Source: Gemmatimonadales bacterium
Lineage (GTDB): Bacteria > Gemmatimonadota > Gemmatimonadetes > Longimicrobiales > Gaopeijiaceae
DNA length: 47,769 bases
Assembly: GCA_007692605.1 (NCBI GenBank)
Contig: REBS01000136.1
Location: forward strand, 1-47,769
Reading direction: 5' to 3'
Under the pieces are notes generated by a model. The model ran no database searches. It worked only from the letters and a program-made list of their open reading frames with translations, and was not told where the DNA came from. This document shows, piece by piece, positions 22,701 to 40,699 of this stretch. The number at the start of each line of letters is the position of its first letter. Within the stretch, counting starts at the first letter, position 1. The translations under genes and the position numbers were made by a program.

Positions 22701-22805
22701 AACGAACGCACCTACCGCGTGCTGGATGTGCTGATCAACACCCAGCCAGCTGTGAATTATCTACGTAAAGTGACCTTCCACCCGGTCGACGACATTCACG
22801 TCTGA
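19788..22805 (+). CDS. actB: alternative complex III subunit B (molybdopterin-like domain plus ferredoxin domain)
   Basis: A 1005-residue fusion. The start has a twin-arginine signal (KRRDFLKVLG). Residues about 50-650 form a molybdopterin-oxidoreductase-like domain with the Fe-S motif CGECSAGC and a later ALCARGH. Known ActB proteins lack the molybdenum cofactor in this domain. Residues about 770-960 form the four-cluster ferredoxin domain: CTGCSACVTACQ, CQHCGNAPCEPVCP, CVGTRYCANNCPYK and CSFCVQR with CQQSCP. In studied complexes these hold three [4Fe-4S] and one [3Fe-4S] cluster carrying electrons from the quinol-oxidising membrane subunit to the hemes. GAGGGA precedes the ATG. Confidence 0.93.
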   Translation: MSEGIKRRDFLKVLGVTGAGAGLVGCSTDRVEKLMPYVTPPEDITPGVATWYSTACGECSAGCGVWVKSMDGRAIKLEGNPNHPISGGALCARGHSSLQALYNPDRVTQPMQRNGDEFEPIDWETAEGILTNAIQDAGSATRFLSGRVGPSLSALMDEVVAEIGGERVEYEALSEAPLREAVRIAFGRDEVPHFDFESADLILSFGADFIETWLSPVEHMRGFARSSGVDDTDGSKTRFVFLGSRLNLTGQNADDWYPIRPGSEGAVALALANALVQRGADAGPYNSIVQGYSLSAAAEQAGIPQDSLEELVDHLSAAEAPLILGPGVAGQHRNATASNLAAMVLNAVSGAIGSTVHFDQSLTGAATRPYSELFGLIEEMAGGSVQALVLHGTNPAYSLPPAAGFREAIEGVGFKVAIVSQMDETAELADLVLPDRHYLESWGDSNPRPGLWTVQQPAMRPVPHFDSRPCGDLLLSLASRLGADLGAETFHDYVRNRWSDLHADAGSPVGTFDVFWRQVLRDGMAELPTDAAAQVSLQSPDRALTFDAPALDGDEDGHVLVVYPSSRFGDGSGANRPWLQELPDPVSKIAWHSWVEIHPDTASEMGVRKGDIVRLRSPHGEVELPVFTYPGVRADTVAVAMGSGHESYGRYAEGKGVNPMRLLPAEQEQPSGALVHLATRVEVEPTGRHRRLATIEGSDQTYDRPIAPAVALAELGQGHGDDHGGYDLQELQAMGGFVPVPTEGRPQDYPLPGAQYGDYDPAENARWSMAIDLDKCTGCSACVTACQAENNVANVGEDQIMMGRDLHWIRMERYYETVDATAPGPVDVRFVPMMCQHCGNAPCEPVCPVYAAYHTPDGLNGQIYNRCVGTRYCANNCPYKVRVFNWYGFSDVPEPMNWQYNPDVTVRSEGVMEKCSFCVQRIRQVENRATVEGRDVRDGEVVPACQQSCPAEAIVFGNIRDPESRVAQVVENERTYRVLDVLINTQPAVNYLRKVTFHPVDDIHV

Positions 22806-22849
22806 GGACTACCAGGTCCTCCGGGTGACCCGGGGGCGAGAGGGAGAGC

Positions 22850-24238
22850 ATGGCGACGGTAACCGAAAAAGAGCGGGGCGCTCAGACCCACCCCGACGTA
22901 CGAAAGTACGCCGAGGTCAATACGGACATCCTCCAGATGCTGTCCCGTCCCGGGAAGTGGTGGTGGATCCTTCTCGGCATGTCGATCGCCGGGATCGGGC
23001 TGCTCGCATTCTCGTGGGGCAACCAGATCATCAACGGGATCGGACTCTCGGGGCTGAACTCCCCGGTGGGGTGGGGCGCGTACATCACGACCTTCGTCTT
23101 CTGGGTCGGTATCGCCCACTCCGGTACCCTGATCTCCGCCATCCTCTTCCTCTTCCGGGCACGGTGGCGGCAGTCGATCTATCGCGCCGCCGAGGCCATG
23201 ACGGTCTTCGCGGTGATGACGGCGGGGCTCTTCCCCCTGATCCACCTGGGCCGGGTCTGGCACGCGTACTGGCTCTTCCCGTACCCGAACCAGCGGCTGC
23301 TCTGGCCGAACTTCCGCTCACCCCTGGTCTGGGACGTCTTCGCGGTCTCGACCTACTTCACGGTCTCGTCGCTCTTCTTCCTGCTGGGGCTGATCCCCGA
23401 CATCGCGGCGGCCCGTGACCAGACGCAGAAGGGGACGCTGCGGAACCGCTTCTACCACCTGCTCTCCTTCGGGTGGCGCGGCACGGACCGCCAGTGGCAT
23501 CACTTCGCCAAGGCCTACCTCCTGCTCGCCGCGCTCGCCACCCCGCTGGTCCTCTCGGTCCACTCGGTGGTCTCCTGGGACTTCGCCATGGCGATCGTTC
23601 CGGGTTGGCACGCCACGATCTTCGCACCCTACTTCGTGGCCGGAGCGATCTTCTCGGGCGTGGCAATGGTGATCACCCTGATGGTCCCGATCCGGAAGGT
23701 CTTCAGGCTCGAGAAATACCTGACGATCCGACATTTCGACGCCATGGCGAAACTCTGTCTGGTGACGGGACTGATCGTGTTCTACGCCTACCTGACCGAG
23801 TTCTTCATGGCCTGGTACTCGGGTGAGGACCCGGAGCGCCGGGTCTTCTGGAACCGGCTCTTCGGTCACTACTGGTGGGCGACCTGGATCATGCTGACCT
23901 GTAACGGGATGATTCCGATTCTCCTCTGGTTCAAGCGGGTCCGACACTCCATTCCGGCGCTCTTCGTGATCACGATCTTCATCAACATCGGGATGTGGTT
24001 CGAGCGCTACGTGATCATCGTCACCTCGCTCTCGCACGAGTACATGCCCTTCGCCTGGGCCGTCTACCGCCCGAGCTTCACCGAGATGGGCATCGTGATC
24101 GGGACCTTCGGCTGGTTCGCCTTCTGGTTCCTCCTCTTCATCCGACTCCTGCCGCCGGTGGCGATCTCGGAGATCAAGGAGGTCCTGCCCCCACCCATGC
24201 GACCGAAGCGTCGGACGAAGGAGGAGGTGTCGTCATGA
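22850..24238 (+). CDS. actC: alternative complex III NrfD-like membrane subunit C
   Basis: A 462-residue polytopic protein of the NrfD/PsrC family with about ten membrane helices. The early region TDILQMLSRPGKWWWILLGMSI, the HSGTLISAILFLFRARWRQ segment and the late WFERYVIIVTSL segment are typical of ActC. This subunit binds and oxidises menaquinol or ubiquinol and passes electrons to ActB. GAGAGGGAGAGC precedes the ATG. The stop overlaps the actD start (ATGA). Confidence 0.93.
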   Translation: MATVTEKERGAQTHPDVRKYAEVNTDILQMLSRPGKWWWILLGMSIAGIGLLAFSWGNQIINGIGLSGLNSPVGWGAYITTFVFWVGIAHSGTLISAILFLFRARWRQSIYRAAEAMTVFAVMTAGLFPLIHLGRVWHAYWLFPYPNQRLLWPNFRSPLVWDVFAVSTYFTVSSLFFLLGLIPDIAAARDQTQKGTLRNRFYHLLSFGWRGTDRQWHHFAKAYLLLAALATPLVLSVHSVVSWDFAMAIVPGWHATIFAPYFVAGAIFSGVAMVITLMVPIRKVFRLEKYLTIRHFDAMAKLCLVTGLIVFYAYLTEFFMAWYSGEDPERRVFWNRLFGHYWWATWIMLTCNGMIPILLWFKRVRHSIPALFVITIFINIGMWFERYVIIVTSLSHEYMPFAWAVYRPSFTEMGIVIGTFGWFAFWFLLFIRLLPPVAISEIKEVLPPPMRPKRRTKEEVSS

Positions 24239-24765
24239 GCACCGCTCGTGAGGGAGTCCTGGCGTCCTACGACTACCTGGACTCCACCCTGGACGCGATC
24301 CGGGAGTTGAGAGAGAAGGGCTTCGAAGAGATCACGGCCTTCGCCCCATTCCCCGAGCACCACATCGAGGAGGCCCTTGGCTACGGGACCACACCGATGG
24401 CCATCTTCACCCTCGTGGGAGGGCTGACCGGAGCCGCGACGGGATTCGCCCTGGCCGTGTTCACGAGTCTCGACTGGCCCCTGGTGACCGGCGGAAAGCC
24501 GATTCTGTCGATGCCGGCCTACGTGATCATCGCCTTCGAGATGACGATCCTCTTCGGAGTGCTCTTCACCGTGTTCGGGGTCTTCTGGAACATGCGGGTG
24601 CCCGATCTCAAGTCCGATGTGGTATACGACCCCGAATTCTCCGCCGGGCGGTTCGGGATTTACGTGACGGCGCCCGGAGACCGCCTCGCCGAGGCGCGAC
24701 AGATTCTGGAGTCCAGCGGTCCCTCGAGGATCGAGGACGACCCGGAGGCAAGGGCTCATGGCTGA
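24235..24765 (+). CDS. actD: alternative complex III subunit D (DUF3341)
   Basis: A 176-residue membrane protein with two helices (about residues 62-82 and 98-118) between hydrophilic ends. The N-terminal LASYDYLDSTLDAIRELREKGFEEITAFAPFPEHHIEEALG is the DUF3341 signature of ActD, and the C-terminal FGIYVTAPGDRLAEARQILESSG is also conserved. ActD helps hold the membrane and peripheral parts together; it has no redox cofactor. The open frame runs upstream into actC, but the ATG at 24235, overlapping the actC stop, is the natural start. It overlaps actE by eight bases. Confidence 0.92.
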   Translation: MSTAREGVLASYDYLDSTLDAIRELREKGFEEITAFAPFPEHHIEEALGYGTTPMAIFTLVGGLTGAATGFALAVFTSLDWPLVTGGKPILSMPAYVIIAFEMTILFGVLFTVFGVFWNMRVPDLKSDVVYDPEFSAGRFGIYVTAPGDRLAEARQILESSGPSRIEDDPEARAHG

Positions 24766-25408
24766 AGGAAGCGAAGGAATGGTGCGCACGCGCAGTTGGA
24801 CGGTTCTCTTCCTGGTCCTGATGACCGGGGCCGGATGCACCCCGATGGACGACCTGCTCGTCTCGATCTTCGGGCGCTCGATGCGGGATCAGCCCTCGAT
24901 CGGAGCCTACGAGGATCCGAGGCTCCCGCCCGAGGGCGCGGTCTCCTTCGCGTCGGGCAATTTTCCCGGCGCCCCGGGGGAGGTTGCCGTCGGCCAGCCC
25001 GAAGGCACGCCCATGCCGGCTCCGATCACCCCGCTCATGCTGCTCCAGGGCCACCCCGACGCGGTGGACCTCGAGAATCCCATCGAGGCCGACGATGCCT
25101 CGCTCGAGCGGGGCGAGGAACTCTACCTGAGAGCCTGCGCGCCCTGCCACGGAGACGCCGGTGCCGGAGGAGGCCCCGTGACGGCCGCGGGCGTCGCCTC
25201 CTTCACCATCATCGAGGGGCAGGCGCTCGAGCACTCCGACGGATATCTCTACTCGATCATCCGGGTGGGACGTGGCTCCATGCCCGCCTACGGACATCAG
25301 CTCACCCATTACGACCGGTGGCACGTGGTCAACTACGTGCGACAGCTCCAGGGGAATCTTCCGCAGCAGCAGGAAGAGGCCTCGGACGACTCCGGCGAGG
25401 AAGGCTAA
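24758..25408 (+). CDS. actE: alternative complex III monoheme cytochrome c lipoprotein subunit E
   Basis: A 216-residue lipoprotein: hydrophobic signal VLFLVLMTGAGC with the lipidated Cys at its end. The single heme site CAPCH lies near residue 128, and the axial Met is probably in GRGSMPAYGHQL. The preceding domain carries the ActE-type segments about MRDQPSIGAYEDPRLPPEGAV and GEELYLRACAPCHGDAGAG. In alternative complex III this subunit is a likely exit point to a soluble cytochrome or the oxidase. Two starts are plausible, at 24758 and seven codons later at MVRTRSW. Confidence 0.92.
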   Translation: MAEGSEGMVRTRSWTVLFLVLMTGAGCTPMDDLLVSIFGRSMRDQPSIGAYEDPRLPPEGAVSFASGNFPGAPGEVAVGQPEGTPMPAPITPLMLLQGHPDAVDLENPIEADDASLERGEELYLRACAPCHGDAGAGGGPVTAAGVASFTIIEGQALEHSDGYLYSIIRVGRGSMPAYGHQLTHYDRWHVVNYVRQLQGNLPQQQEEASDDSGEEG

Positions 25409-25418
25409 GGCCTGACCG

Positions 25419-26732
25419 ATGCATGATATCCACGTTCCATCCGATGTTCAGGCTCGATACCTGAACCCCTCCCGGATCACGACCTTCGTCCTTCTGGCGA
25501 TGGTCGGGGCTGGAGCCCTGGCCTTTGTCGTGCTCCTGGCCTCCGATGCCGACCGTGCCTGGCAGGCCTACGTCGCGAACTGGCTCTTCTTCACCGGGAT
25601 CGCTCAGGGTGCGGTGATTCTCTGCGCGGCCACCGTGATCACCAAGGCCAAGTGGAACTGGTCGGTGCGGCGCGTGTCCCTGGCGTTCGGGGCTTTTCTT
25701 CCCGTCGCCTACCTGCTCATGCTGCCCATGCTCCGGTTGCGGGAGAGCTACTTCCCGTGGATCGAGAAGATGGAGTACGACCCGATCGTGCAGTTGAAGG
25801 AAGCGTACCTCAACATTCCCTTCCTGATCTCCCGGAATCTCATCGGTACGGCCATTCTCTTCACCCTGACCCTCATCTTCATGTACTGGATGCTGCGGCC
25901 CGATCTGGGCGCGGAGCGGGCCGAAGACGAGGAGGGCCACTCGGGCCGCGCGAGCTGGCGGGAGCGACTCAGCGGGAACTGGCTGGGACAGGAGGCCGAA
26001 GAGCAGCGCGCCTGGCAGAAGCTGAAGGTCCTTGCGCCGGCGCTCGCCCTGGTCTACGCGGTGGTGATGAGCATGCTGGCGATCGACTGGGCGATGTCGC
26101 TCGAGCCGCACTGGTTCTCGATGCTCTTCCCCGGGTGGTTCTTCATGACCGCCTTCTGGGGAGGGATCGCGGCCACCGTGGTGGCGATGGTGCTCCTCAA
26201 GCGCAAGAACGCCTACTTCAACGAGCACATGGGTCCGCAGCAGAAGCACGATCTGGGCAAGCTGACCTTCGCCTTCTCGATCTTCTGGGCGTACCTGTTC
26301 TTCTCGCAGTACATCGTGATCTGGTACGGAAAGCTCCCCTGGGAACAGGCGTGGATCATCCACCGTTCCGGGGCGGAGTGGGGGCCGCTCGCACTCACCG
26401 CGATCATCCTCTGCTTCATCGTGCCCTTTGCGGGGCTGATCGGGCGCAAGCCGAAGCTAAACCCGACCTGGCTCGGTTCGATCGCGGCGATCGCCCTGCT
26501 GGGAGTCTGGCTCGAGCGGTGGCTTCTGATCGCGCCTTCGCTGCACGAGGCCGGTACGCCGACGATCACCCTCTGGGAGCCGCTCATCGGACTGGGCTTC
26601 CTGGGGATCTTCGCGCTGACCATCCGCTGGTTCCTTGCGACCTTCCCGACCATCCAGCTCTGGCAGCCCCCGCAGGAGCCCGAGATGCTCGACCGTGAAG
26701 TCGCTCCCAGCGAAGCGAGCGCGAGCGTCTGA
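25419..26732 (+). CDS. actF: alternative complex III quinol-binding-like membrane subunit F
   Basis: A 437-residue polytopic protein with about ten helices, homologous to ActC/NrfD but with a distinct sequence (WQAYVANWLFFTGIAQGAVILCAATVITKAKW is diagnostic). In solved complexes ActF packs against ActC and may serve in proton translocation or as a second quinone-associated subunit. It is the last act gene here; no actG or cytochrome oxidase gene follows. A strong hairpin begins six bases after its stop codon. Confidence 0.92.
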   Translation: MHDIHVPSDVQARYLNPSRITTFVLLAMVGAGALAFVVLLASDADRAWQAYVANWLFFTGIAQGAVILCAATVITKAKWNWSVRRVSLAFGAFLPVAYLLMLPMLRLRESYFPWIEKMEYDPIVQLKEAYLNIPFLISRNLIGTAILFTLTLIFMYWMLRPDLGAERAEDEEGHSGRASWRERLSGNWLGQEAEEQRAWQKLKVLAPALALVYAVVMSMLAIDWAMSLEPHWFSMLFPGWFFMTAFWGGIAATVVAMVLLKRKNAYFNEHMGPQQKHDLGKLTFAFSIFWAYLFFSQYIVIWYGKLPWEQAWIIHRSGAEWGPLALTAIILCFIVPFAGLIGRKPKLNPTWLGSIAAIALLGVWLERWLLIAPSLHEAGTPTITLWEPLIGLGFLGIFALTIRWFLATFPTIQLWQPPQEPEMLDREVAPSEASASV

Positions 26733-26878: not shown

Positions 26879-27145
26879 CTACACGAACATCGACGGGCTG
26901 ACCTCCATCGCCACCTCGGAGATTCGATCCACCGGCAGCCCCGCCAGCTCGGCATGACGGAGTACGGCCTCCTCGTTCGGGGCCTCGTACTCGCAGTAGA
27001 TCTTTCCGGCGGCATCCGAAACGTAGCTCCGGATCCAGACGACGTCATCCATTCCCTCCAGGACCTCGTTGGACTTCCTGCCGGCGGCCTCCACCTCGTC
27101 TCTCGTGAGCGTTCCCGTCGTCCTCTCGATGATGTACCTGGGCAT
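26879..27145 (-). CDS. DUF4242 (SCO4226-like) small protein
   Basis: An 88-residue ferredoxin-like-fold protein. PRYIIERTTG, DVVWIRSYVSDAAGKIYCEYEAPNEEAVLRHAELAGLP and the C-terminal DRISEVAME match the DUF4242 family. One member, Streptomyces SCO4226, binds nickel; others are of unknown function. AGGAGAGCACC before the ATG at 27145 fixes the start. It lies 28 bases after the giant kinase gene on the same strand and so probably is the last gene of that operon. A link to nickel here is only by family. Confidence 0.82.
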   Translation of the reverse strand: MPRYIIERTTGTLTRDEVEAAGRKSNEVLEGMDDVVWIRSYVSDAAGKIYCEYEAPNEEAVLRHAELAGLPVDRISEVAMEVSPSMFV

Positions 27146-27173
27146 GGTGCTCTCCTGTTCTCGGTTCAATTCT

Positions 27174-30100
27174 TCAGGGGCGAAGTTTGGCGCATGCCTC
27201 CTGAAGGTCGTGGTCTCCCATCTCGTCCGCGATGAGCGTCGCTTCGGTCACCAGATCACGTACGCGGTCCAGATGCCCCATGTGGTGGGCCGACGTCGCG
27301 AGCCGCTGAATCATCCACCCGGCCCCGGTCTGATCTCCGATCCCCCTCCGGATCTCGAGGGAGTCCTGGAAGGCCTGCACGGCGAGCTCGGGCTCATCCT
27401 GCTCCAGGAGCGTATCACCCAGGGCCGCCAATGCGTATCCCTCGAGCTGGGCTTTACCCGACTCCCTGTGGAGGGAAATGGCCCGCTCCAGCGCGTCACG
27501 AGCCGAGTCCAGCCGGTTCAGGCGGCGCAGCGTCTGGCCCAGGCTGCTCAGTGCGTGCCCGAGGGAGGCCGTGTGGGCTGTGCCTTCGAAGCAGGCCACG
27601 GCGTCGACGTAGTGCCGGTGCGCAGTCTCGTAGTCCCCGGATTCCCAGGCAACGACGCCGAGGGAATTGAGGGCCACGCCCGCCTTTTCAAGCTGTCCGG
27701 TTTCCCGGGCGATCCGGACTGCATGCTCGTAGTACGAGATCGCGAGGCGGACAGACCCCAGATGCTCCCTGGTCAGACGTGCAAGGGCCATGAGGCTTTC
27801 AAACTCGAGCGGTTCGTCGCCCGCTTCTCCCGCGAGCTGGTGGGCGTCACCCCACGCGGCGAGCGCCTGCTGGGCCTCGCCTAGTTCCTCCTGGATGATG
27901 GCGACTCGGCTCTGGGCGTGGGCCTGCCGGTCGATTTCCTCCATGCGCCCGAACCAGGCGCTGGCCTCGGTCCAGTACGGCAGGGCATCCTCGTGTCGAC
28001 CGAGTCCCTCGAGCACCTTTGCCAGGGCACTGACCCCTCGGGCGACCCCCTCGGCATGGCGGACCCGACGGGTGAGATCCACGGCTTTCTCATAGAGGGC
28101 CACGGAATCCTCGGTGCGGCCGATCTGCAGGTACACGTGAGCCAGGGAGGTCATCAGGTAGGATTGCTGGAGGGGTAGATGATGCTTCTCACACAGCGCG
28201 ATACCCTCCTCCCACCTGGCGATGCCCTCGTCCGTCCGTCCCAATTCGCGCTGGCAGAGAGCCGCCGTATGGATCGCGTACACCTTGCGAAAAGGGCTGT
28301 CCTCGGCGAGCCGTATGGACTCCTCGGCGAGCTCGAGCGCCCGCTCGACCTCACCCATGCCCCGGTACACGCTGCCCAGATTGTGGTGGTCGAGAATCAT
28401 GCCCTGTTTATCCCCCGCCTCGCGGTCGTCGTCCAGTACCGCCTCCAGGATCTCGAGGGCCTCGTCGTTACGATCCTGGTGCCAGCGCAGGAGCCCCAGA
28501 CTGCGAAGGGCCTTGCGGTGGATGGCCGAGTCCGAGGCACGGCTCGCCTTGTCGACCGCCTCGAGCAGCGTGTCTTCGGCACTCTCGTAGTTCCGGAGCG
28601 AGACTTCGAGATCACCGGCCCGGACGAGCACCTCGGCCTGGAGGGCGAGGTCCTCGCACCCCTCCACAAGGGGGCGAAGCTCGCTGATGATCCTCCGTTG
28701 CTCGCCGCGTTCACCGGTGGTTTCGGAGAGCCGCTCCTTCATGAGAAGCATTTCGAGGCGTCGCTCGAACGCCTCCTCGTCGGGAAGATGTACGAGGGCG
28801 GTCTCTGCCACCTTCAGGGCCCGAAGGGCGTCAGGGATCTGGCTGAGCCGTGACGCCCTCCTCGCCGCACCCAGGGCGTAGTCGACAGCCTTGTCCCAGA
28901 CTTCCGCGCGGAGGAAATGGTCTCCGAGGCGCGCGAACGGGCGATCCTCGTCACTGGTGAGCCGCAGCGCCTCCATCGCCTCGCCAACCCGCTTGTGCAG
29001 CTCCTTGCGCTGATGACCCAGTAGCGTCTCGTAGGTCACCTCCTGGATCAGCGCGTGCTTGAATCGGTACGCGACATCCGGGACCACCCGGGTCTGCTGG
29101 ATGAGCCCCACGGCTCTCAACCGCTCCAGCGCGCCGTTCAAATCCGGCGCTCCGGGCAGCGCACGCCCCACCAGGTCTCGGGTGAAGTCACGTCCCACGA
29201 CCGATGCCGCACTCAGGACCTCCCTCGTGGCCGGCGTGATGCGATCGAGCCGTGTCCGAATCACCGACTGCACGGAATCGGGGAGCGACAGGGCTTCTGC
29301 CTCGCGCGAAAGCCCGGCTCGCCCTTCTCGGATTTCGATGGCGCCCTGCTCGGCAAGGGCTGCGCACATCTCCTCGATGAAAAAGGGGTTGCCCTGAGCA
29401 CGGTCGTGGATGCGGTCGACCAGCGCTTCGTTGACGACATCGACTCCAAGGCTCGATGCGACGACCTGGTGGATGTGGTCGGCCACCAGAGGGGCGAGGG
29501 TGATGTGACGGTGGTTGGCGAGAGATTCCCAGGTGACGCCGTACCCCGGCCGGTGGCTCACGATGACCAGCATGGGGAAGGCCGCGATCAGCTCACCGAG
29601 CTGGACGAGAGCTGCGGTGGACGCTTCGTCGGCCCAGTGCCAGTCTTCGAGGAGCAGCGTGATGGGACGGGACGTCGATGCGACCGTGAGGATCGCGGCA
29701 ATGGATTCGACAATGGCCAGGCGGAGCTGGTCCCCCGACAGCTGCTGGGGGACCGGAGTGTCAGAGGGGATGGACAGCAGGTGCAGATAGAACGGGGCGT
29801 AGGCCACCAGCTCCCCACCCAGCGCCTCGACACGCTCGGTAACCTCGGTCGCCGTGGGCGGATCCTGTTCGTCGATCTTCAGCAGCTGTCGAAGAACATC
29901 GAGAAACGGCATGTAGGGCACGGCACCGCCATAGGACTGACAGCGACCATGGAGAACACGGGTTCGATTGCCCAGCACCCCGAGCTCGAACTCGTAGAGG
30001 AGCCGGCTCTTTCCGATTCCCGCCTCACCGTTGACCGTCACGATTCCACCGGACCCCTCGATGGCTTCTTCCAGTCCTTCGACCAGCACGCCGAGCTCGG

Positions 30101-32126
30101 AACTCCTTCCGGTGAATGCAGTGAGCCCGCCGAGCGACCGTGCTTCCAGGGTAGACTCGAACTCCCGGAGATTGTGGACGTGGTAGGTGGAGATCGTCCC
30201 CGAATCGTGGCCCAGTCCGACATCGGGACCCCGATCCGTTTCGGCGAACGAGCGGACCATTCGGCGGCAGTCCGAGCTCACGAGTACCGTCCCGGGGCCG
30301 GCTTCGGTGGCGAGCCGGGCCGAACGCTTCATCAGGGATCGACCGATCCGGTACTTCCCTCCGTCTCCGGAGTCGAGGTGCACGGCGACGATCCCGACGT
30401 CGATCCCGCTACGCAGTGCAATTCCGAGGCTCTCCGGATTCGGGCCCAGGTGGATACGCTCGCATCGGCGTGTCGACTCCAGGGCCGCCTGGACGGCCCG
30501 CTTCGTGTCATCCTCACGGGCTTCGGGAATTCCGAAGACGCATTCGATCCGGTCGGCGTTCACGGCGTGGACCATCCCCCCCTGCGACGTCACCACGGCG
30601 GTCACGGTCTGCCGCACCCGTTCCAGGACGGCTTCGACGGCCTCGGTTGAGTGGTCATCGACCAGCTCGTCGAATTCGGCGAGGAGGGTCGTGAGCGCTG
30701 TCACCTGACGCCGCTCACCCTTGCGCATGAGTCCTCCCCGGAGACCGGACTCCCCGGCTTCGGGTGACGAGCCGATCCGGACCTTCTCGAGGGCCTCGAC
30801 CATCGCCGCTGCCGTCGCGTATCGTTTTGCCGGATCCTTCTGCATGGCGCGGCTCACCACAGGCTCCAGACTCGATGCTCCGTCGACGTGTGGAGCCAGG
30901 GGGTCGGGGACTCCGGTCAGAATCGAGTCCTGGATGGCCTGATCCGTCGACCCCCGGAAGGGACGGACCCCGGAAACCATTTCGTATAGCATCACGCCGA
31001 GCGCCCAGATGTCGGATCGGTGATCGACGGCCCCTCGCTGCGTCTGCTCCGGGCTCATGTAGCTGACGGTGCCCAGTGCGACGCCGGTGCGGGTCAGGTT
31101 CTGTCGGGCGACCTTGGCCACTCCGAAGTCGACGATCGTAGCCGTCCCACCGTCGGTGACAATGACGTTGGCGGGCTTCACGTCGCGATGAATCACGCCG
31201 CTGGCGTGGGCCGCCGCCAGGCCTCGGCCGACCTCGATGGCGATCGGGACCGCCAGCCCCGCGCCCAGGGCACCGCCCTTCAGAAGCTCCTTGACCGTGC
31301 GGCCGCTGTAGTAGGGCATGGCGATGAAAAGCCGCCCGTCGATCTCGCCGACCTCGAGGATCGTGCAGATGTTGGGGTGGTCCAGCGCGGCGGCGGCCCT
31401 CGCCTCGGCCAGAAAGCGCTGCTTTGCCGTGGGGTCGCTCGCCAACGTGGAAGAGAGGAATTTGAGAGCCACCATCCGGCCCAGTCGACTGTCCTCGGCA
31501 CGGCACACGACGCCCATCCCCCCGGAGCCGAGACGCTCGTGGAGCGTGTAGTGCCCGAACCGGCTTCCGACCTCGGGAGCCCCCCCGTCGATACGGACAT
31601 GGACCCGGAGGGACTGGGCGAGTTCATCGAGCATGCCATGGCCCTCGTGAGCCTCCAGCAGGTCGACCACCTCGGAGCGGACGGCCGGATCGGGTGCGAT
31701 GCGCTCCAGAGCTGCCGCTCGCCGGGAAGGTTCGACGCGCAGGGCCTCTTCGAAGGCCCTCTGGGTCCGGGCGAAGCGCGCTCTGGCGTCCGCGGAGGGC
31801 GACGACGGTCGGGCCGGGATCACTCCCGGTGCCTTGATCTCGCCGTGAGCCGCGCCGGTGCGCACAACCCCTTCGCGCGTGATGTCGAAGGCCCATCCCA
31901 GAACGACGGTCAGGGGAAGTCCGAGAGCGGAGAGGACGATGACCAGAGCCAATGCCCAGTCGGGGATCCCCAGGGCCGGAAAGGCGATCTCGGCGATCTG
32001 CCAGACGAGAAATACGGCTGCAGCGTAGGCCAGAACGACACGGAAGACGCGCCTCCGTCGGAGCTCGCCGACGAGCTCCACAAGCCGGCGCCGGCTCATG
32101 GGCTGGGGCCCGCTGTCCCCGGTCAT
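27174..32126 (-). CDS. membrane-anchored Ser/Thr kinase - cyclase-like - STAND ATPase - TPR regulator
   Basis: A 1650-residue signalling protein. Residues about 14-83 form two membrane helices with the RRRRVFRVVLAYAAAVFLVWQ start found on many TPR/cyclase sensors. A Hanks-type kinase follows (about 192-450): GSGGMGVV, Lys222, HRDVKPAN (313-320), DFG (333-335) and SPEQ are intact, so it should be active. Residues about 470-650 resemble a class III nucleotide cyclase, but the first metal-binding Asp is replaced (TALTTLLAEF), so catalysis is doubtful. A STAND/AAA-type ATPase has Walker A GEAGIGKS (700-707) and Walker B LLLEDWHWAD. From about 1120 to the end lie many TPR repeats. The ATG at 32126 is preceded by AAGGAGG; a GTG 14 codons upstream is less likely. 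Confidence 0.9.
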   Translation of the reverse strand: MTGDSGPQPMSRRRLVELVGELRRRRVFRVVLAYAAAVFLVWQIAEIAFPALGIPDWALALVIVLSALGLPLTVVLGWAFDITREGVVRTGAAHGEIKAPGVIPARPSSPSADARARFARTQRAFEEALRVEPSRRAAALERIAPDPAVRSEVVDLLEAHEGHGMLDELAQSLRVHVRIDGGAPEVGSRFGHYTLHERLGSGGMGVVCRAEDSRLGRMVALKFLSSTLASDPTAKQRFLAEARAAAALDHPNICTILEVGEIDGRLFIAMPYYSGRTVKELLKGGALGAGLAVPIAIEVGRGLAAAHASGVIHRDVKPANVIVTDGGTATIVDFGVAKVARQNLTRTGVALGTVSYMSPEQTQRGAVDHRSDIWALGVMLYEMVSGVRPFRGSTDQAIQDSILTGVPDPLAPHVDGASSLEPVVSRAMQKDPAKRYATAAAMVEALEKVRIGSSPEAGESGLRGGLMRKGERRQVTALTTLLAEFDELVDDHSTEAVEAVLERVRQTVTAVVTSQGGMVHAVNADRIECVFGIPEAREDDTKRAVQAALESTRRCERIHLGPNPESLGIALRSGIDVGIVAVHLDSGDGGKYRIGRSLMKRSARLATEAGPGTVLVSSDCRRMVRSFAETDRGPDVGLGHDSGTISTYHVHNLREFESTLEARSLGGLTAFTGRSSELGVLVEGLEEAIEGSGGIVTVNGEAGIGKSRLLYEFELGVLGNRTRVLHGRCQSYGGAVPYMPFLDVLRQLLKIDEQDPPTATEVTERVEALGGELVAYAPFYLHLLSIPSDTPVPQQLSGDQLRLAIVESIAAILTVASTSRPITLLLEDWHWADEASTAALVQLGELIAAFPMLVIVSHRPGYGVTWESLANHRHITLAPLVADHIHQVVASSLGVDVVNEALVDRIHDRAQGNPFFIEEMCAALAEQGAIEIREGRAGLSREAEALSLPDSVQSVIRTRLDRITPATREVLSAASVVGRDFTRDLVGRALPGAPDLNGALERLRAVGLIQQTRVVPDVAYRFKHALIQEVTYETLLGHQRKELHKRVGEAMEALRLTSDEDRPFARLGDHFLRAEVWDKAVDYALGAARRASRLSQIPDALRALKVAETALVHLPDEEAFERRLEMLLMKERLSETTGERGEQRRIISELRPLVEGCEDLALQAEVLVRAGDLEVSLRNYESAEDTLLEAVDKASRASDSAIHRKALRSLGLLRWHQDRNDEALEILEAVLDDDREAGDKQGMILDHHNLGSVYRGMGEVERALELAEESIRLAEDSPFRKVYAIHTAALCQRELGRTDEGIARWEEGIALCEKHHLPLQQSYLMTSLAHVYLQIGRTEDSVALYEKAVDLTRRVRHAEGVARGVSALAKVLEGLGRHEDALPYWTEASAWFGRMEEIDRQAHAQSRVAIIQEELGEAQQALAAWGDAHQLAGEAGDEPLEFESLMALARLTREHLGSVRLAISYYEHAVRIARETGQLEKAGVALNSLGVVAWESGDYETAHRHYVDAVACFEGTAHTASLGHALSSLGQTLRRLNRLDSARDALERAISLHRESGKAQLEGYALAALGDTLLEQDEPELAVQAFQDSLEIRRGIGDQTGAGWMIQRLATSAHHMGHLDRVRDLVTEATLIADEMGDHDLQEACAKLRP

Positions 32127-32172
32127 CGCATCGCCTCCTTCTGTGCGCTTCGCCTGGTCCACGGTCACGGCC

Positions 32173-33347
32173 TCAGCCCCAACGCCGCTCGTCCGCGAGG
32201 TCGACGCCGAGGAGCGCCTTGCCGAGCACCTCGTGGGTCACGTAGCGGTTGGCTGGATGGATCCGTCCCAACCGGGCGTCGCGGAAGAGACGCTCGAGCC
32301 CCGATCCCGGAAAGATGCCGAATCCCCCCGCTACGTCGAGCGCGCGATCCACGACGCGCCAGCTCGCCTCGACGGCGTGGGACTTGGCCGCGAAAATCTT
32401 CACCGGCCACACGGCGCCGTGATCGACCCCCCGAGACCAGTCGGCGGCGATCCGGTCCAGATGGGGTTCAACGGCCTCGAGCTCGAGGGCCATGGCCGCC
32501 ACGTCGTGCTGTACTCCGGGGTGGTGGCGCATGTCTCGGGACATGGCAATCGACGTCTTTTTCTCGAGGCGCTCGACCGTCAGGTCGAACATTCGGTGGG
32601 CGATCGCGAAATAGATGTTCCCAAAGGGCAGCAACGCCCAGACGAAGATGCCCAGGACGAAGGCATCAATGCCGGGAAACCCCGCGTCCACGACCCGGGC
32701 GATTCGCTCCTCGGGCACGAAGACGCCGTCCAGCACCGTGTCGTCGCTCCGTGTCGCGCGCATCCCCAGGACGTCATCCCACGTCTCCACGGTCGACAGG
32801 CCGGCGGAGTCACGCGGCGCGAAGGCGTGGACGACCCTCGGGTGCTCAGGGTCCGACGTGTCCAGCCCGTGGATCCCGAGCTGGGTCCACGCCGGACCGA
32901 GGCTCCCGAAGGCCTTTCGCCCCGTGAACCGGTATCCGCCGTCTGCCGGCTCCGCGCGGGTCGTCGAAAGGAGCACCGGGATGTCGTTTCCGGTCTCGGC
33001 GTGACCGGCCGCGAAGACCTCCCCGTCGACGGCCTCCTCGAGAAGCCACTGCAGGGAGGTGTCCCCCGCACGCCAGAGGTCGGCTGCAACGCCCGTCCAG
33101 TAGAGATGCATATTGACCGCCAGCGCCGAGGGCCCCGCGTAATACGCCAGGCGCCGCTGCAGCTGGCACACCTCAGCCAGCGAGGCTCCTGCGCCTCCCA
33201 GCTCCTCGGGCACGGCGATGCTCAGGTAGCCGATGTCACGCAGCTCGTCGAAGTCCTCCTGGAAGAAGCGGTTCTCGCGGTCGTACGTGGGTGCGCGCTC
33301 AGGAGCTCCGGGGACAGCAGCGCTTCCCCAGTGGCTGGGTTGTTCAT
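32173..33347 (-). CDS. acyl-CoA dehydrogenase homologue, apparent frameshift near the 5' end
   Basis: About 390 residues of an acyl-CoA dehydrogenase fold: the N-terminal DRENRFFQEDFDELRDIGYL helix, a central FAD/substrate region (FAAGHAETGND, YRFTGRKAFGSLG) and a C-terminal helical domain (RALDVAGGFGIFPGSGLERLFRD). Where most members have the catalytic EGT motif, this one has GRIHPANRY, so activity may differ. The natural start appears to be the ATG at 33347 after GGGAGAG, encoding MNNPATGEALLSPELL. That frame loses register at 33300; inserting one base between LL and ERAPTYDREN would restore a normal protein. Without the shift, the only in-frame start is a GTG at 33384 with no ribosome-binding site. 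It lies between the ECF sigma gene and the kinase gene. Confidence 0.75.
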
Positions 33348-33415
33348 GGTCTCTCCCGTGTCGGAGGGCAAGAGGGTCTCTCACCCGTGCTTGCGTGAAA
33401 CGGGCCTCGGACGGC

Positions 33416-33982
33416 TCACTCGCCGGGTTCGGGTCGTATCTGCCGGTTCAGCCAGGCCCGGGCCACGGTCCAGTCCCGCTTCACCGTCGCCGGAGACACA
33501 CCCAGGGTCTCCGCCGTCTCCTCGACGGTCATCCCTGTGAAGACTCGGTATTCGACGACTCGGGCCTTTCGTTCGTCGAGCGCCTCGAGCCGCTCCAGGG
33601 CGTCGTCGAGGGCCACGAGTTCGAGGGATCGGTCGTCGACCACGGCGAGGCCCGGGGTAAGCGGCTCGGGGATGGCGCCTCCGCCGCGTTTCCCGGCCCT
33701 GCGCTTCCTCGCGTGATCGACCAGGATCCGCCGCATCGCGCGGGCGGCGATGGACAGGAAATGAGCCCTGCCCTCGGCGTCGATGGGCGTGCTTCCCACG
33801 AAGCGGAGATACGACTCGTGGACGAGCGCAGTGGTATCGAGGGTGTGGTCCGGATGTTCGCGGGCGAGCTGGGCCCGGGCGACGCGCCTCAGATCGTCGT
33901 ATACCAGGGGATAGAGCTGGTCCAGCGCGCGCATGTCGCCCTCGGCGAGCCTCCGGAGGATCCCCTGCGCATCGGTGCTCAT
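33416..33982 (-). CDS. ECF RNA polymerase sigma factor (TIGR02999-like)
   Basis: A 188-residue extracytoplasmic-function sigma factor. The sigma-2 region is visible in ALDQLYPLVYDDLRRVARAQ and TLDTTALVHESYLRFV; the sigma-4 helix-turn-helix is YRVFTGMTVEETAETLGVSPATVKRDW. It matches the group frequently encoded beside Ser/Thr kinases, and such a kinase gene lies two genes downstream. It contains no anti-sigma factor gene next to it. The ATG at 33982 was chosen because the family starts there; the frame runs a further 104 codons upstream through non-conserved Arg/Pro-rich sequence. It is probably the first gene of the operon with the acyl-CoA dehydrogenase, kinase and DUF4242 genes. Confidence 0.9.
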   Translation of the reverse strand: MSTDAQGILRRLAEGDMRALDQLYPLVYDDLRRVARAQLAREHPDHTLDTTALVHESYLRFVGSTPIDAEGRAHFLSIAARAMRRILVDHARKRRAGKRGGGAIPEPLTPGLAVVDDRSLELVALDDALERLEALDERKARVVEYRVFTGMTVEETAETLGVSPATVKRDWTVARAWLNRQIRPEPGE

Positions 33983-34487: not shown

Positions 34488-35285
34488 CTATCGGTCGGAG
34501 AGAAGCTTCAGCGCTTCGGAGTGCAGGGGGCCATTCGAGGAGAGCCCGGAGCCACCGTGGATGGTAGCGGCGCCCGAGAGGTCGGTGAACCGACCTCCGG
34601 CTTCCGCTAGGATCGTGAGTAGCGGAGCGGCATCCCAGGCCGAGAGCTCGGGATCGACCATCAGTTCGGCCCGTCCGGTGGCCACGAGCGCGTGCCCGTA
34701 GGCATCGCCCCAGCTTCGGGTGTAGCCGACCGCGGCCGTGAGTCGCCCCCAGCCCGGACCGAACTGGCTGCTCGCCGTCATGCCTGGGTCCGAGGTCAGC
34801 GCGACCGCCTCCTTCAACTCCCGGGTGCCGTTGACCGACGCCGGTACGTCGATCCGACTGCCGGCGGGCCTCCAGAAGGCACCTTCGCCTCGGCCGGCCC
34901 AAACGGTCTCGGCGAGCGCGGGGAAGTGCGCGACGCCCACGACAGGAACGTCGTCTCGTTCGATCCCGATCAGCACCGCATAGAGCGGAACGCCGCGCAT
35001 GAAGGAGCGGGTGCCGTCGATCGGGTCGAGAATCCAGCGGACCCGTCCGGCCCCCTCGGTCTCTCCGAATTCCTCGCCCAGAACCCCGTGATCGGGGTAT
35101 TGGCGGGTGATCCGGTCGCGCAGGAGGGACTCCGCCTCGCGATCGGCGATGGTGACCGGTGAGCCGTCCCCCTTCGCTTCGGATTCGACGACGTCGCCGA
35201 AGTGCCGGAGGGTCACCCGACCGGCCTCGCGAGCCAGCGTCACCGCGCTGTCCATCAGCTCCCGGATCTCGGTATCCGGGCTCAT
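34488..35285 (-). CDS. inositol-monophosphatase-family phosphatase (HisN-like)
   Basis: A 265-residue Mg2+-dependent phosphatase. Motifs are GEEFGE (Glu71/72 region), WILDPIDGTRSFMRG (Asp87, Asp90, Gly91, Thr92) and SAWDAAP near residue 217, which together make the metal and phosphate site. Family members dephosphorylate inositol-1-phosphate, histidinol phosphate, PAP or fructose-1,6-bisphosphate. The RSFMRG variant after the DPIDGT motif favours the HisN-like histidinol-phosphatase group, but no histidine biosynthesis gene is adjacent. Its ATG overlaps the stop of the GGDEF gene by four bases. Confidence 0.87.
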   Translation of the reverse strand: MSPDTEIRELMDSAVTLAREAGRVTLRHFGDVVESEAKGDGSPVTIADREAESLLRDRITRQYPDHGVLGEEFGETEGAGRVRWILDPIDGTRSFMRGVPLYAVLIGIERDDVPVVGVAHFPALAETVWAGRGEGAFWRPAGSRIDVPASVNGTRELKEAVALTSDPGMTASSQFGPGWGRLTAAVGYTRSWGDAYGHALVATGRAELMVDPELSAWDAAPLLTILAEAGGRFTDLSGAATIHGGSGLSSNGPLHSEALKLLSDR

Positions 35286-36817
35286 GAAGACTTCCGCTTC
35301 CCCTTCGATCGGTACAGATCGCCGTCGGCGGCCTGAATCAGCGCCTCGGTGGTGTCGACCCCGTCCGAGAACTCCGATACCCCGAAGGACATGCTCAGCG
35401 CCAGGGGCCCGAGCAGGGGGTGCTGGCTGAGGCGTCGGGCTACTCGCTCGGCGTGCTGACGGGCGCCCTCCTCCGACGTATCCGAGAGCACCGCCACGAA
35501 CTCGTCGCCCCCGTATCGGGCCACCAGGTTCATGGCTCGGGTCTCGCCCTGCAGGATCTGCCCCACGGCGCGCAGCGCATCGTCACCGGCCAGGTGGCCG
35601 AGTGCGTCGTTGTACTGCTTGAAGTCGTCGAGGTCGAAGAGGACGAGCGAGAGCTTTCGGCCCCGCCGAGCTGCGGCCAGCTCCTGGCTGATGTGCATTT
35701 CCATGTGCCGGCGGTTCGGAAGGCCCGTGAGGGGGTCCGTGAGCGATAGCGAGCGCAGGCGTGCGTGCAGGCGCGCGTTCTCGAGCGCGAGCGCTGCATG
35801 GCCCGCGAGACGCTGCAGGAGCCGGGCTCCGTCGGGGGTGAAGCTCCGGGGCTCCGAGCTCCCCACCGAGAGTGCCCCGATCACGCGGTCCCCCGCGATC
35901 AGGGGCACGATCATCGCGCTCTCGCCCTTGAGTCGACGCCGTGTCGCCGCCGGGAGCAGGCCCGAGGCCGGCAGATCTTCGATGATCACCGATTCCCGAT
36001 CGTCGAGAATCAGCGAGATGAGCTCCCCCTGCAGGGGGAAGAGGGCACCCTCGGGGGGGCCGATCGCGCCGGCGGATGAGCCGACGCGGGCTCCCGCCTC
36101 TTCGAGGAGCCATACCGCGGCCCCATCGGCGGCCAGCAGGTCGAGCGAGGCGTCGACGATCCGGCGGAGCACTTCGCGGTCGTCGAGCGAAGAGGTCAGC
36201 GCCCGGGCGATGTCGAGAATGCGCTCGGCCTCGCGACGTCGACGGTCCAGCTCGGAAACATGTCGGGCGTTCTGGATGGCGACCGAGGCGACGTCGGCGA
36301 TGCCCTTCAGGAGCTCCATCTCCTCGGGGCCGTATGCGTGCGGGCGATAGCTTTGAACGCTGAGTGCGCCGATGACCGAACCTCCGCCATGGAGGGGGGC
36401 CGAGACCGCAGAGCGGGTCGGGGCCGAGTCGTCCTCCCCGAGCACCAGGAGGGATCGGTCCGCCAGACGATCCTCCACCAGCACCGGCTGGCCGGTCTGG
36501 ATTACCTCGCTCTCGGAACCCCGGAAGCGGATCTGCGAATGCCGTCCGCGCCCCCGGTCGGCCCAGTAGACGACCTCGGCCTCGTCGGTCCTGGGGTCGT
36601 GAAGCACGATGTAGAACCCGTCGGCCTCGAGGATCCGCACCGTCTCGCGGTGGATCGAGGCATAGATGTCCTCCTCTCTGAGCACACCGGAAAGCGAGCT
36701 TCCAATGCCCAGGAGCACCTTGTACCGATCCGCCAGGGTCGACGGAGCCGCGGGGGTGTCGGCGATGGGACGCATGGGGACGGGGACGGGCGGGGGCCAT
36801 CGACCCTTCGGTCGCAT
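35282..36817 (-). CDS. GAF-GAF-GGDEF diguanylate cyclase
   Basis: A soluble cytoplasmic protein of about 511 residues. Two GAF sensor domains occupy about residues 30-185 and 200-350, joined by a helix rich in Arg/Glu. The GGDEF domain (about 355-505) has LTDPLTGLPNRRHM, FDLDDFKQYND and an intact YGGDEF active-site loop (436-440), so it should make cyclic di-GMP. The inhibitory-site position reads RAMN (427-430) instead of RxxD, suggesting weakened product inhibition. The start is uncertain, at 36817 or an ATG 14 codons later; neither has a good ribosome-binding site. It is translationally coupled to the phosphatase gene. Confidence 0.88.
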   Translation of the reverse strand: MRPKGRWPPPVPVPMRPIADTPAAPSTLADRYKVLLGIGSSLSGVLREEDIYASIHRETVRILEADGFYIVLHDPRTDEAEVVYWADRGRGRHSQIRFRGSESEVIQTGQPVLVEDRLADRSLLVLGEDDSAPTRSAVSAPLHGGGSVIGALSVQSYRPHAYGPEEMELLKGIADVASVAIQNARHVSELDRRRREAERILDIARALTSSLDDREVLRRIVDASLDLLAADGAAVWLLEEAGARVGSSAGAIGPPEGALFPLQGELISLILDDRESVIIEDLPASGLLPAATRRRLKGESAMIVPLIAGDRVIGALSVGSSEPRSFTPDGARLLQRLAGHAALALENARLHARLRSLSLTDPLTGLPNRRHMEMHISQELAAARRGRKLSLVLFDLDDFKQYNDALGHLAGDDALRAVGQILQGETRAMNLVARYGGDEFVAVLSDTSEEGARQHAERVARRLSQHPLLGPLALSMSFGVSEFSDGVDTTEALIQAADGDLYRSKGKRKSS

Positions 36818-40506: not shown

Positions 40507-40699
40507 GAGCTTCCTCGGTCGTGGTTCCGGATCAGGATGGGTGCGGTGCAAGGGTGCGCCGACGCCGGTTCGGTGAATGAACGCCGGACCAGCCCGACAA
40601 ATCTCTCGAAGGCTGCCGTAGAAGTACAGGGCCCGGGGTTGGGAGTCCCGGGGCCCCTGAGCTTCCGCAACCGCCTTCTGGCAAGACGCGTCGGAAATT

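Follow-up and report, generated by a model that had tools for sequence, protein, structure and literature searches.

Four adjacent genes on the minus strand of a Gemmatimonadales contig (REBS01000136.1 of assembly GCA_007692605.1), at positions 26879-33982, encode an extracytoplasmic function (ECF) sigma factor, a flavoprotein of the acyl-CoA dehydrogenase (ACAD) fold, a 1650-residue kinase protein and an 88-residue DUF4242 protein. In the interpretation that we moderately favor, these genes form a sensor-switch-effector module in which the kinase would phosphorylate the ECF sigma factor at Thr51 and the sigma factor would then transcribe the module, including the monooxygenase-like flavoprotein. 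The contig, which was analyzed at its full length of 47,769 nucleotides and is called the window below, is contig 106 of a draft genome of 3.55 Mb that is 93.6% complete. The features of the locus are as follows.

26879-27145, minus strand: DUF4242/SCO4226-like protein of 88 residues, predicted sensor partner (PF14026, E 2.1e-25, 89.1 bits against a cut-off of 28.5)
27174-32126, minus strand: 1650-residue sensor kinase consisting of a two-helix anchor, the N2 segment, a Hanks kinase, a degenerate cyclase-like domain, a STAND/AAA_16 ATPase and a TPR array (Pfam/NCBIfam, hydropathy, motifs)
27207-28649, minus strand: TPR array of the kinase protein, about residues 1160-1640 (PF13424, 9 stretches, E 3.6e-44)
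29565-30116, minus strand: STAND-type AAA_16 ATPase domain, residues 671-854 (PF13191, E 4.7e-19, Walker motifs)
30177-30713, minus strand: cyclase-like domain, residues 472-650, predicted to be inactive (20.2 bits against a Pfam cut-off of 21.9)
30804-31550, minus strand: Hanks-type Ser/Thr kinase domain, residues 193-441 (PF00069, E 6.8e-44, motifs)
31557-31808, minus strand: N2 segment, residues 107-190, predicted to dock the sigma factor (test with a hidden Markov model, HMM)
32173-33384, minus strand: ACAD-fold flavoprotein, predicted to be monooxygenase-like, with an N-terminal frame change (Pfam, alignment, fold match)
33390-33419, minus strand: degraded copy of the promoter-like motif with 3 mismatches, 42 bases before the ATG at 33347 (41 by the count used for the relatives)
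33416-33982, minus strand: ECF sigma factor of 188 residues (PF07638, E 6.7e-56, 189.5 bits against 21.1; TIGR02999, 208.9 bits against 126.15)

An earlier interpretation of the same DNA, made from its letters alone (the sequence-only reading), had described four genes on one strand, and this description is borne out: all four are on the minus strand, and their families are confirmed by Pfam and NCBIfam. The order along this strand is ECF, flavoprotein, kinase, with the flavoprotein gene located between the ECF and kinase genes. A scan of genome contigs with the ACAD protein yielded 70 loci, and all four genes are found together in six loci other than the window. Three of these are gammaproteobacterial (L010 and L014 from Steroidobacteraceae, and L013 from a gammaproteobacterial metagenome-assembled genome), two belong to the phylum of the window (L135 and L138), and one comes from a metagenome-assembled genome of Acidobacteriaceae (L023). 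The ACAD gene, which in the window is flanked by the ECF and kinase genes, is divergent from the ECF gene in L135, convergent with the DUF4242 gene in L010, L013, L014 and L138, and located on the opposite strand beyond the ECF gene in L023. The four-gene run is thus not a chance neighborhood; the search for the same set of neighbors in other genomes, suggested along with the sequence-only reading as a check, recovers it in several arrangements. The inclusion of the dehydrogenase-like gene in the module, also part of that reading, is supported by these six loci and by an upstream motif that is shared by five of them (see below).

These data bear on a rival explanation, by which the ECF and the kinase form a pair of the usual type and the genes for DUF4242 and the dehydrogenase-like protein travel along as passengers. 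Such pairs are common in the genome of the window and in the literature, and close relatives of the ACAD protein (E <= 1e-60) are rare in the phylum, being detected in 6 of the 298 genomes sampled, the window's own included, with three of the five others lacking the set in the fetched stretch. Nevertheless, we consider this explanation improbable given that the same partners recur across several phyla and arrangements, and that the ECF-kinase label requires five changes on the ACAD tree (72 rows, with a midpoint root used for drawing only), at least 3 of these changes being forced by supported branches, which implies that the association was made or kept repeatedly. L074, whose title says gammaproteobacterial, falls among Acidobacteria on the same tree, possibly as a result of mis-binning.

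Ordinary ECF sigma factors contain the motif DAED in region 2.2. At the same place, the ECF sigma factor of the window has D49-T50-T51-A52 (DTTA), with Thr51 being the predicted phosphosite, and a threonine occupies this position in 15 of the 17 ECFs examined. Among the characterized proteins, EcfP of Vibrio parahaemolyticus contains STTA, in which the second Thr is phosphorylated by PknT, the consensus of ECF43 is QTTA, and EcfK of Xanthomonas citri contains QATE, in which Thr51 is phosphorylated by PknS, as described in the respective papers (PMC8999054, PMC13147305, PMC8103513); the T51E variant of EcfK is described there as constitutively active (PMC8999054, PMC13147305). The genome of the window encodes 14 PF07638 matches, of which 9 are strong. 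An adjacent kinase gene is present for 7 of the 7 strong paralogs outside the window for which downstream sequence is available, whereas the eighth is located at a contig end (the five weak matches are outside this count). The statement in the sequence-only reading that kinases are often found beside such ECFs therefore holds in this genome, and its proposal that the kinase controls the sigma factor gains support from the pairing of the paralogs, the DTTA motif and the EcfP/EcfK literature. The kinase very likely controls the neighboring sigma factor, which looks dormant until phosphorylated. The ECF family membership, the nearby Hanks kinase and the Thr-containing motif are all features of an ECF43-like phospho-activated sigma factor, with direct activation being a prediction. 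In this respect, the kinase-ECF part of the locus is of a known kind, exemplified by EcfP/PknT and EcfK/PknS: a Thr-bearing sigma2.2 motif, here DTTA, beside a Hanks kinase. Unlike in the ECF43 systems, the kinase here is combined with a degenerate cyclase domain, a STAND ATPase and an extended array of TPRs, and has DUF4242 and the flavoprotein as partners, which also occur with other outputs; the likeness to ECF43 is one of motif and neighboring kinase.

For the 1650-residue protein, the sequence-only reading had proposed an architecture of membrane anchor, Hanks kinase, cyclase-like domain, STAND ATPase and TPR array. All these parts were identified, and the kinase motifs (GSGGMG at 200, VALK at 219, HRDVKPAN at 313, DFG at 333, SPE at 358) are intact, as are Walker A at 700 and Walker B at 823 in the ATPase; the cyclase-like domain, however, falls below the Pfam cut-off and lacks a metal-binding Asp. 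Class III nucleotidyl cyclases need two metal-binding Asp residues, and the first of these is absent in 10 of the 10 kinase-type members aligned, including that of the window. An active cyclase was rejected on these grounds, the missing Asp and the score of 20.2 bits against 21.9. A simple hydropathy scan detects two hydrophobic stretches at the N-terminus of the kinase protein. An anchor upstream of the kinase domain was found in the window and L115 only, and the same scan detects no two-helix anchor in the module kinases of L010, L013, L014, L023, L126, L128, L135 and L138. Because the anchor is missing from most of the relatives examined, the earlier idea that a membrane or lipid signal is sensed finds no support and was dropped as a general feature.

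Approximately 80 residues preceding the kinase domain comprise a segment that we denote N2. An HMM trained on the N2 segments of seven kinases from the genome of the window matches 8 of the 9 held-out ECF-adjacent kinases (the exception is L006) and 1 of the 9 kinases with a complete N-terminus that are not ECF-adjacent, i.e., have no ECF in the fetched region (the match is L126; L110, in which the N-terminus is cut off, was excluded). This distribution leads us to propose N2 as the docking segment for the sigma factor. For PknS, an unexplained stretch of 83 residues ahead of the kinase domain has been described, in addition to TPRs (PMC13147305), and N2 is comparable to it in position and length. 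A single match to the TOMM kinase/cyclase fusion family (TIGR03903) covers residues 216-1449 of the window protein, from the kinase through the cyclase and ATPase domains into the TPR array, with a score of 414.8 bits against a cut-off of 705.75, so that the protein is not a member of this family by that model. In L126 (7840-13638, minus strand), a protein of the kinase-cyclase-AAA-TPR type has an N-terminal alpha/beta-hydrolase domain, and its gene adjoins that for DUF4242.

The second gene of the run had been annotated as an atypical acyl-CoA dehydrogenase. Pfam places three ACAD domains above the cut-off and the middle domain below it (21.2 against 33.3). The structure model (pLDDT 86.5) has its best fold match in 5z8t, a flavin-containing monooxygenase (TM 0.83, E 1.3e-22), and there are further matches to DszC, KijD3 and MsuC; true dehydrogenases are only slightly behind by fold, which makes the monooxygenase assignment a prediction. 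The catalytic Glu of acyl-CoA dehydrogenases resides in the IYEGT motif. This residue is absent from the flavoprotein, which has GRIHPANRYVTH where a canonical ACAD encoded in the same window has GTIYEGTTNMQL; the latter gene (39340-40551, minus strand), in which YEGT is intact, served as an in-window control. Conversely, His376, Pro377 and Asn379 (HPxN) are invariant in 39 of the 39 aligned members of the flavoprotein family. The fold part of the annotation is thus retained whereas the activity is not supported, a monooxygenase being the predicted alternative. The flavoprotein shares with the ACAD-fold flavin monooxygenases (5z8t, DszC, KijD3, MsuC) the fold and the lack of the dehydrogenase Glu, but is only about 30% or less identical to them.

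Other genes adjoin members of this flavoprotein family in particular lineages. Seven flavobacterial loci (L036-L041 and L045) share genes for a SoxA/TsdA-type cytochrome c, DsrE and TauE, as identified by Pfam in one member each; in L045, these are located between genes for DUF4242-AraC regulators and the flavoprotein gene. This arrangement hints at sulfur chemistry, and a role in sulfur metabolism is kept as a lead, with no similar genes found among the few other flavoprotein neighbors that were annotated. In eight acidobacterial loci (L018, L020-L024, L063 and L071), a gene for a methyltransferase with an Rv2258c-like winged helix adjoins the flavoprotein gene (Pfam for L018 and L020).

In the upstream regions of the four-gene loci, we recognized a non-palindromic pattern of constant spacing, RTGAGCY-N13-TTNNSGCYTY. 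Exact matches to this motif are present at 9 distinct sites in the 1.75 Mb of fetched sequence (which is redundant, with 21 loci wholly inside others), all of them in L010, L013, L014, L135 and L138, and thus in every other four-gene locus except L023. In each of these five, it precedes the ACAD gene, often as a separate unit, at a distance of 31-53 bases from the flavoprotein start. The motif is also found before the ECF gene in L138 and before the gene that is divergent from the ECF gene in L010 and L014, where it encodes a PAP2-family protein, and in L013, where the product has no Pfam match; the N-termini of these three proteins, examined by eye, resemble signal peptides. Across 11 whole genomes, there are 14 matches in six genomes, 9 of the 14 at the module, compared to a single match for the backwards control; of the five matches away from the module, the four that were examined are all inside open reading frames (ORFs). 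Since the motif was derived from the same loci, this test is partly circular. When each lineage in turn was left out of the derivation, a module site still ranked first in each of six loci; the rank of the ACAD site itself was 1 in L013 and L135, 2 in L010 and L014, and 3 in L138. In L128, where no ACAD gene is nearby, the best motif site precedes the ECF gene and the second best is located upstream of a 'GHSH' gene (family described below), at a distance of 53 bases. A search for new four-gene loci in the order around G317 returned the known genome only (1 of 196). For the relatives of the window, these observations make a strong case that the motif is a promoter.

DUF4242 is the most constant partner of this flavoprotein family, being found by a locally built HMM in 30 of the 70 loci, at 0 to 8.6 kb from the ACAD gene. 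The ACAD tree has a distinct clade of 16 actinobacterial and Ancylobacter-type rows, and DUF4242 is present at none of these 16 loci. In the phylum of the window, DUF4242 was detected in 75 of the 298 genomes, at 94 places, and 20 wide regions around these genes were chosen by hand for inspection. The kinase protein or its C-terminal part is encoded directly upstream in 6 of the 6 regions where DUF4242 is at least 51% identical to that of the window; these same six have no ACAD gene in the fetched region. The remaining 14 include three with a regulator match (L113, L117, L120) and 11 with none. In several loci, DUF4242 is fused to a regulatory domain: to a cyclase domain in L017, L072 and L114 (Pfam) and L042 (HMM and BLAST), and, in flavobacteria, to an AraC-type helix-turn-helix domain, with DUF4242 being N-terminal and the other domain C-terminal (L033 and L035 by Pfam, seven more by HMM and BLAST, in fragments in L036); these flavobacterial loci have one to four copies.

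The window protein belongs to the same Pfam family (PF14026) as SCO4226, well above the cut-off (89.1 bits against 28.5), but misses that of the NCBIfam equivalog (36.9 against 125). The nickel ligands of SCO4226, His23, Asp43, Ser46, Glu74 and His76, are described as conserved in Streptomyces (PMC4186839). At the corresponding positions of the structure 4oi3, the window protein has Gly22, Ser43, Ala46, Arg74 and Ser76, none of the five ligands being conserved, and nickel sensing was dropped from consideration. The DUF4242 proteins described here further differ from SCO4226 in being linked to regulators, up to the fusion with AraC-type domains in flavobacteria.

The regulators that accompany the flavoprotein are diverse, as judged from the part of the flavoprotein loci for which the neighbors were fully annotated. 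The combination of a kinase-pseudocyclase-AAA-TPR protein and an ECF is found beside the ACAD gene in the window, L010, L013, L014, L135 and L138, and that of a kinase-NB-ARC-TPR protein and an ECF in L023. The other architectures are winged helix-NB-ARC-TPR (L018 by Pfam, with homologs in seven more loci by BLAST, one of them cut off), cyclase-AraC-NB-ARC-TPR (L029), AAA-TPR-LuxR (L047, and L048 and L078 by BLAST), TIR-AAA-TPR-LuxR (L044), SAM-cyclase-AAA-TPR (L050, and L043 by BLAST, in two ORFs) and a partly N-masked kinase-AAA protein (L031). L018 and L023 have NB-ARC/TPR parts that are 74% identical but differ in their front ends, a winged helix in the former and a kinase with an ECF in the latter; on the ACAD tree, L023 is placed among the winged-helix rows. 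In other phyla, DUF4242 and the flavoprotein are kept while the kinase-plus-sigma output is replaced by a DNA-binding domain, namely winged helix, AraC or LuxR. It is a serious possibility, albeit one that we put forward with some reserve, that DUF4242 is the sensor of an undescribed multi-phylum system. Under this scenario, DUF4242 would work with the pseudo-cyclase and STAND-TPR part or with a fused regulator, and would be dedicated to Glu-less ACAD-fold flavoproteins and secreted partners. The system would have been plugged repeatedly into interchangeable outputs, i.e., winged helix, AraC, LuxR, or a kinase with a phospho-activated ECF and its private promoter.

The same gene combinations are compatible with a role of the flavoprotein as a part of the sensor, rather than as a regulated effector, in which case it might bind or make the ligand, or report the flavin redox state, for DUF4242 and the STAND-TPR protein. 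The genes for DUF4242-cyclase proteins directly beside the flavoprotein gene in L017 and L072, the preservation of the partnership across different output domains and the loss of the catalytic Glu all fit such a role. The distribution of the motif does not: it is located directly before the flavoprotein gene in five loci, often as a separate unit, as would be the case for a regulated gene, and also precedes genes for proteins that are not sensors (the PAP2-family protein in L010 and L014 and the protein without a Pfam match in L013). We therefore regard a sensory flavoprotein as rather unlikely. A defense or conflict module, in which the STAND ATPase with the kinase, and in L044 a TIR domain, would act on invaders and the flavoprotein would be a toxic effector, was considered as well and dropped. 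Kinase models of PADLOC from 33 families match the kinase domain, and the TIR-AAA-TPR-LuxR regulator of L044 is reminiscent of such modules. However, among the matches listed (25 of the 33), the coverage is confined to approximately residues 184-527, that is, the kinase domain and its edge, none of the other three proteins has a PADLOC match (1 of 4 matched, compared to the several components of a multi-component system), and the relatives scanned mostly carry transcription outputs rather than effectors, all of which leaves this explanation with very little credence.

Returning to the sensor-switch-effector interpretation, the proposed mechanism starts with a ligand that would be sensed by DUF4242 together with the pseudo-cyclase/STAND-TPR part. 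An ATP-driven rearrangement of the STAND-TPR part would then free the kinase, the N2 segment would dock the sigma factor, and the kinase would phosphorylate Thr51 in the DTTA motif. The phosphorylated sigma factor would gain affinity for RNA polymerase and recognize the motif as its promoter, so that the flavoprotein, in the relatives also the secreted partners, and in L138 the ECF itself, would be transcribed; finally, the flavoprotein might oxidize the inducing compound. What has been observed of this scheme is its anatomy, the joint occurrence of the genes and the motif; the remaining steps are predicted.

A number of observations speak against this mechanism or restrict its generality. Only 2 of the 5 other genomes of the phylum with a close flavoprotein have the full set (L135 and L138); in the fetched stretches of L136 and L137, there is no match to the ECF, kinase or DUF4242, and L139 has the kinase alone. 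Within the family of the window, a draw of 58 genomes contains the ACAD protein at E <= 1e-40 in the window's own genome only, and a larger draw adds G286. The kinase and DUF4242 occur without this flavoprotein in the fetched regions of L110, L112, L115, L123, L126 and L128, of which L110, L112 and L123 are short contigs, with the genome of L123 encoding the ACAD protein on another contig. These loci indicate that the flavoprotein is a frequent, not an obligatory, partner. Kinase homologs away from the sigma factor or the dehydrogenase, which the sequence-only reading had named as evidence against itself, are thus found in part: all six loci lack the dehydrogenase in the region fetched, which in L115 and L126 is also devoid of an ECF match. 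Similarly, 40 of the 70 flavoprotein loci, some of them on short contigs, show no DUF4242, and on the ACAD tree the clustering of the ECF-kinase label does not exceed that of shuffled labels (37 of 500 shuffles are as low).

The phosphorylation step is affected by three further points. The ECFs of L128 and L138 have Asp at the position of Thr51 (motif ETDG), so that phosphorylation at that position is not universal; such an Asp would mimic the charge of a phosphate, and these are possibly naturally phosphomimetic sigma factors. The first acid of the DAED patch, D49, is kept in the ECF of the window, unlike in QTTA or STTA. Finally, in the study on EcfK, the T51A variant alone still functions in vivo whereas the combination of T51A and T106A fails (PMC13147305); either site suffices, and Thr51 need not be the only one. 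As for the promoter, the exact motif has no match in the genome of the window (nor in G020, G161, G179 and G207) and is absent from L023. The copy in the window has 3 mismatches, matches of this quality occur in the window at chance level (16 found against 16.8 expected), and there is no good match upstream of the ECF gene of the window, which together render the promoter claim weak for the window itself. The location of the copy is its one unusual aspect: it ranks 13 among 95478 window positions, and we estimate a chance of about 0.003 for a site this good in the 23 bases where one would be expected. A relaxed pattern, made after the window copy had been seen, has this copy as its sole match in the genome, with two matches for the backwards control.

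The reading frame of the flavoprotein is disturbed in the window, which likewise weighs on the negative side. The sequence-only reading gave gaps of 68, 46 and 28 bases between the four genes; the values of 46 and 28 are correct for the starts that it named, whereas 68 is not because the ATG at 33347 is in a different frame from the flavoprotein ORF (33384-33347 = 37). The long ORF as given opens only at the GTG at 33384, which leaves a gap of 31 to the ECF gene. The frame of the ATG at 33347 reads MNNPATGEALLSPELL, resembling the N-terminus of the homolog P0002 (MQTTTAREALLTPELLERFGERAPTYD); the likeness lasts for 16 residues, after which the sequences diverge, and a stop follows after 41 codons. 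The long ORF picks up the homology to P0002 again at ERAPTYDRENRFF, and BLASTP gives an identity of 90% between the two proteins with a query coverage of 93% (85% identity in alignment A1). Given that this start is homologous yet out of frame, either the frame is genuinely altered early in the flavoprotein gene or the assembly is in error, the disturbed region (33250-33400, minus strand) being equally compatible with the two. The frame change and the 3 mismatches in the motif copy could be taken as signs that the module is decaying in this genome. We find this very unlikely given that the rest of the flavoprotein ORF is open over 375 residues with P0002 being 85% identical, that the other three genes are intact and that an assembly error is as likely a cause.

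In the literature searched, which included few subscription papers, we found no description of DUF4242 as a signaling component or of this gene set, and no described function of DUF4242 beyond the weak nickel binding of one Streptomyces protein. The present analysis suggests a function for DUF4242 that can be tested, namely sensing within a transcription switch. The pair of L018 and L023 represents a natural domain-swap experiment that would show the kinase-plus-sigma output replacing a one-protein regulator. Since the motif is found at the module and only a handful of additional sites in the 11 genomes searched, the switch could be tested in cultured Steroidobacter strains, and a potentially orthogonal switch might be obtained.

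A family that we denote 'GHSH' is encoded in the vicinity of many DUF4242 genes. These proteins of approximately 200 residues have signal-peptide-like N-termini, two invariant Cys and a conserved LHxWxWxxNPxGxF end, and show no Pfam or NCBIfam match and no fold match in the PDB at E <= 0.001. An example is L013:10809-11429 (plus strand), and relatives are found in L020, L021, L022, L063, L074, L128, L084, L090, L103, L105 and L111. In the phylum of the window, the family is present in 88 of the 298 genomes, and a 'GHSH' gene is located within 2 kb of at least 17 of the 94 DUF4242 genes; the window's own genome has two copies, neither of them on the window contig. This genome also encodes a second, more distant DUF4242 protein (G000:C111:2918-3151, in L113), in a locus that additionally contains an ORF resembling an NB-ARC/TPR regulator.

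Just upstream of the ECF gene of the window, at 34488-36817 on the same (minus) strand, a gene for a HisN-like phosphatase (262.2 against an NCBIfam cut-off of 275.15, and thus below it) overlaps by a few bases with a gene for a GAF-GAF-GGDEF protein. On the other side, at 19788-26732 on the plus strand, a molybdopterin/Fe-S gene and two NrfD-type genes are located near one another, in a group that resembles an alternative complex III operon.

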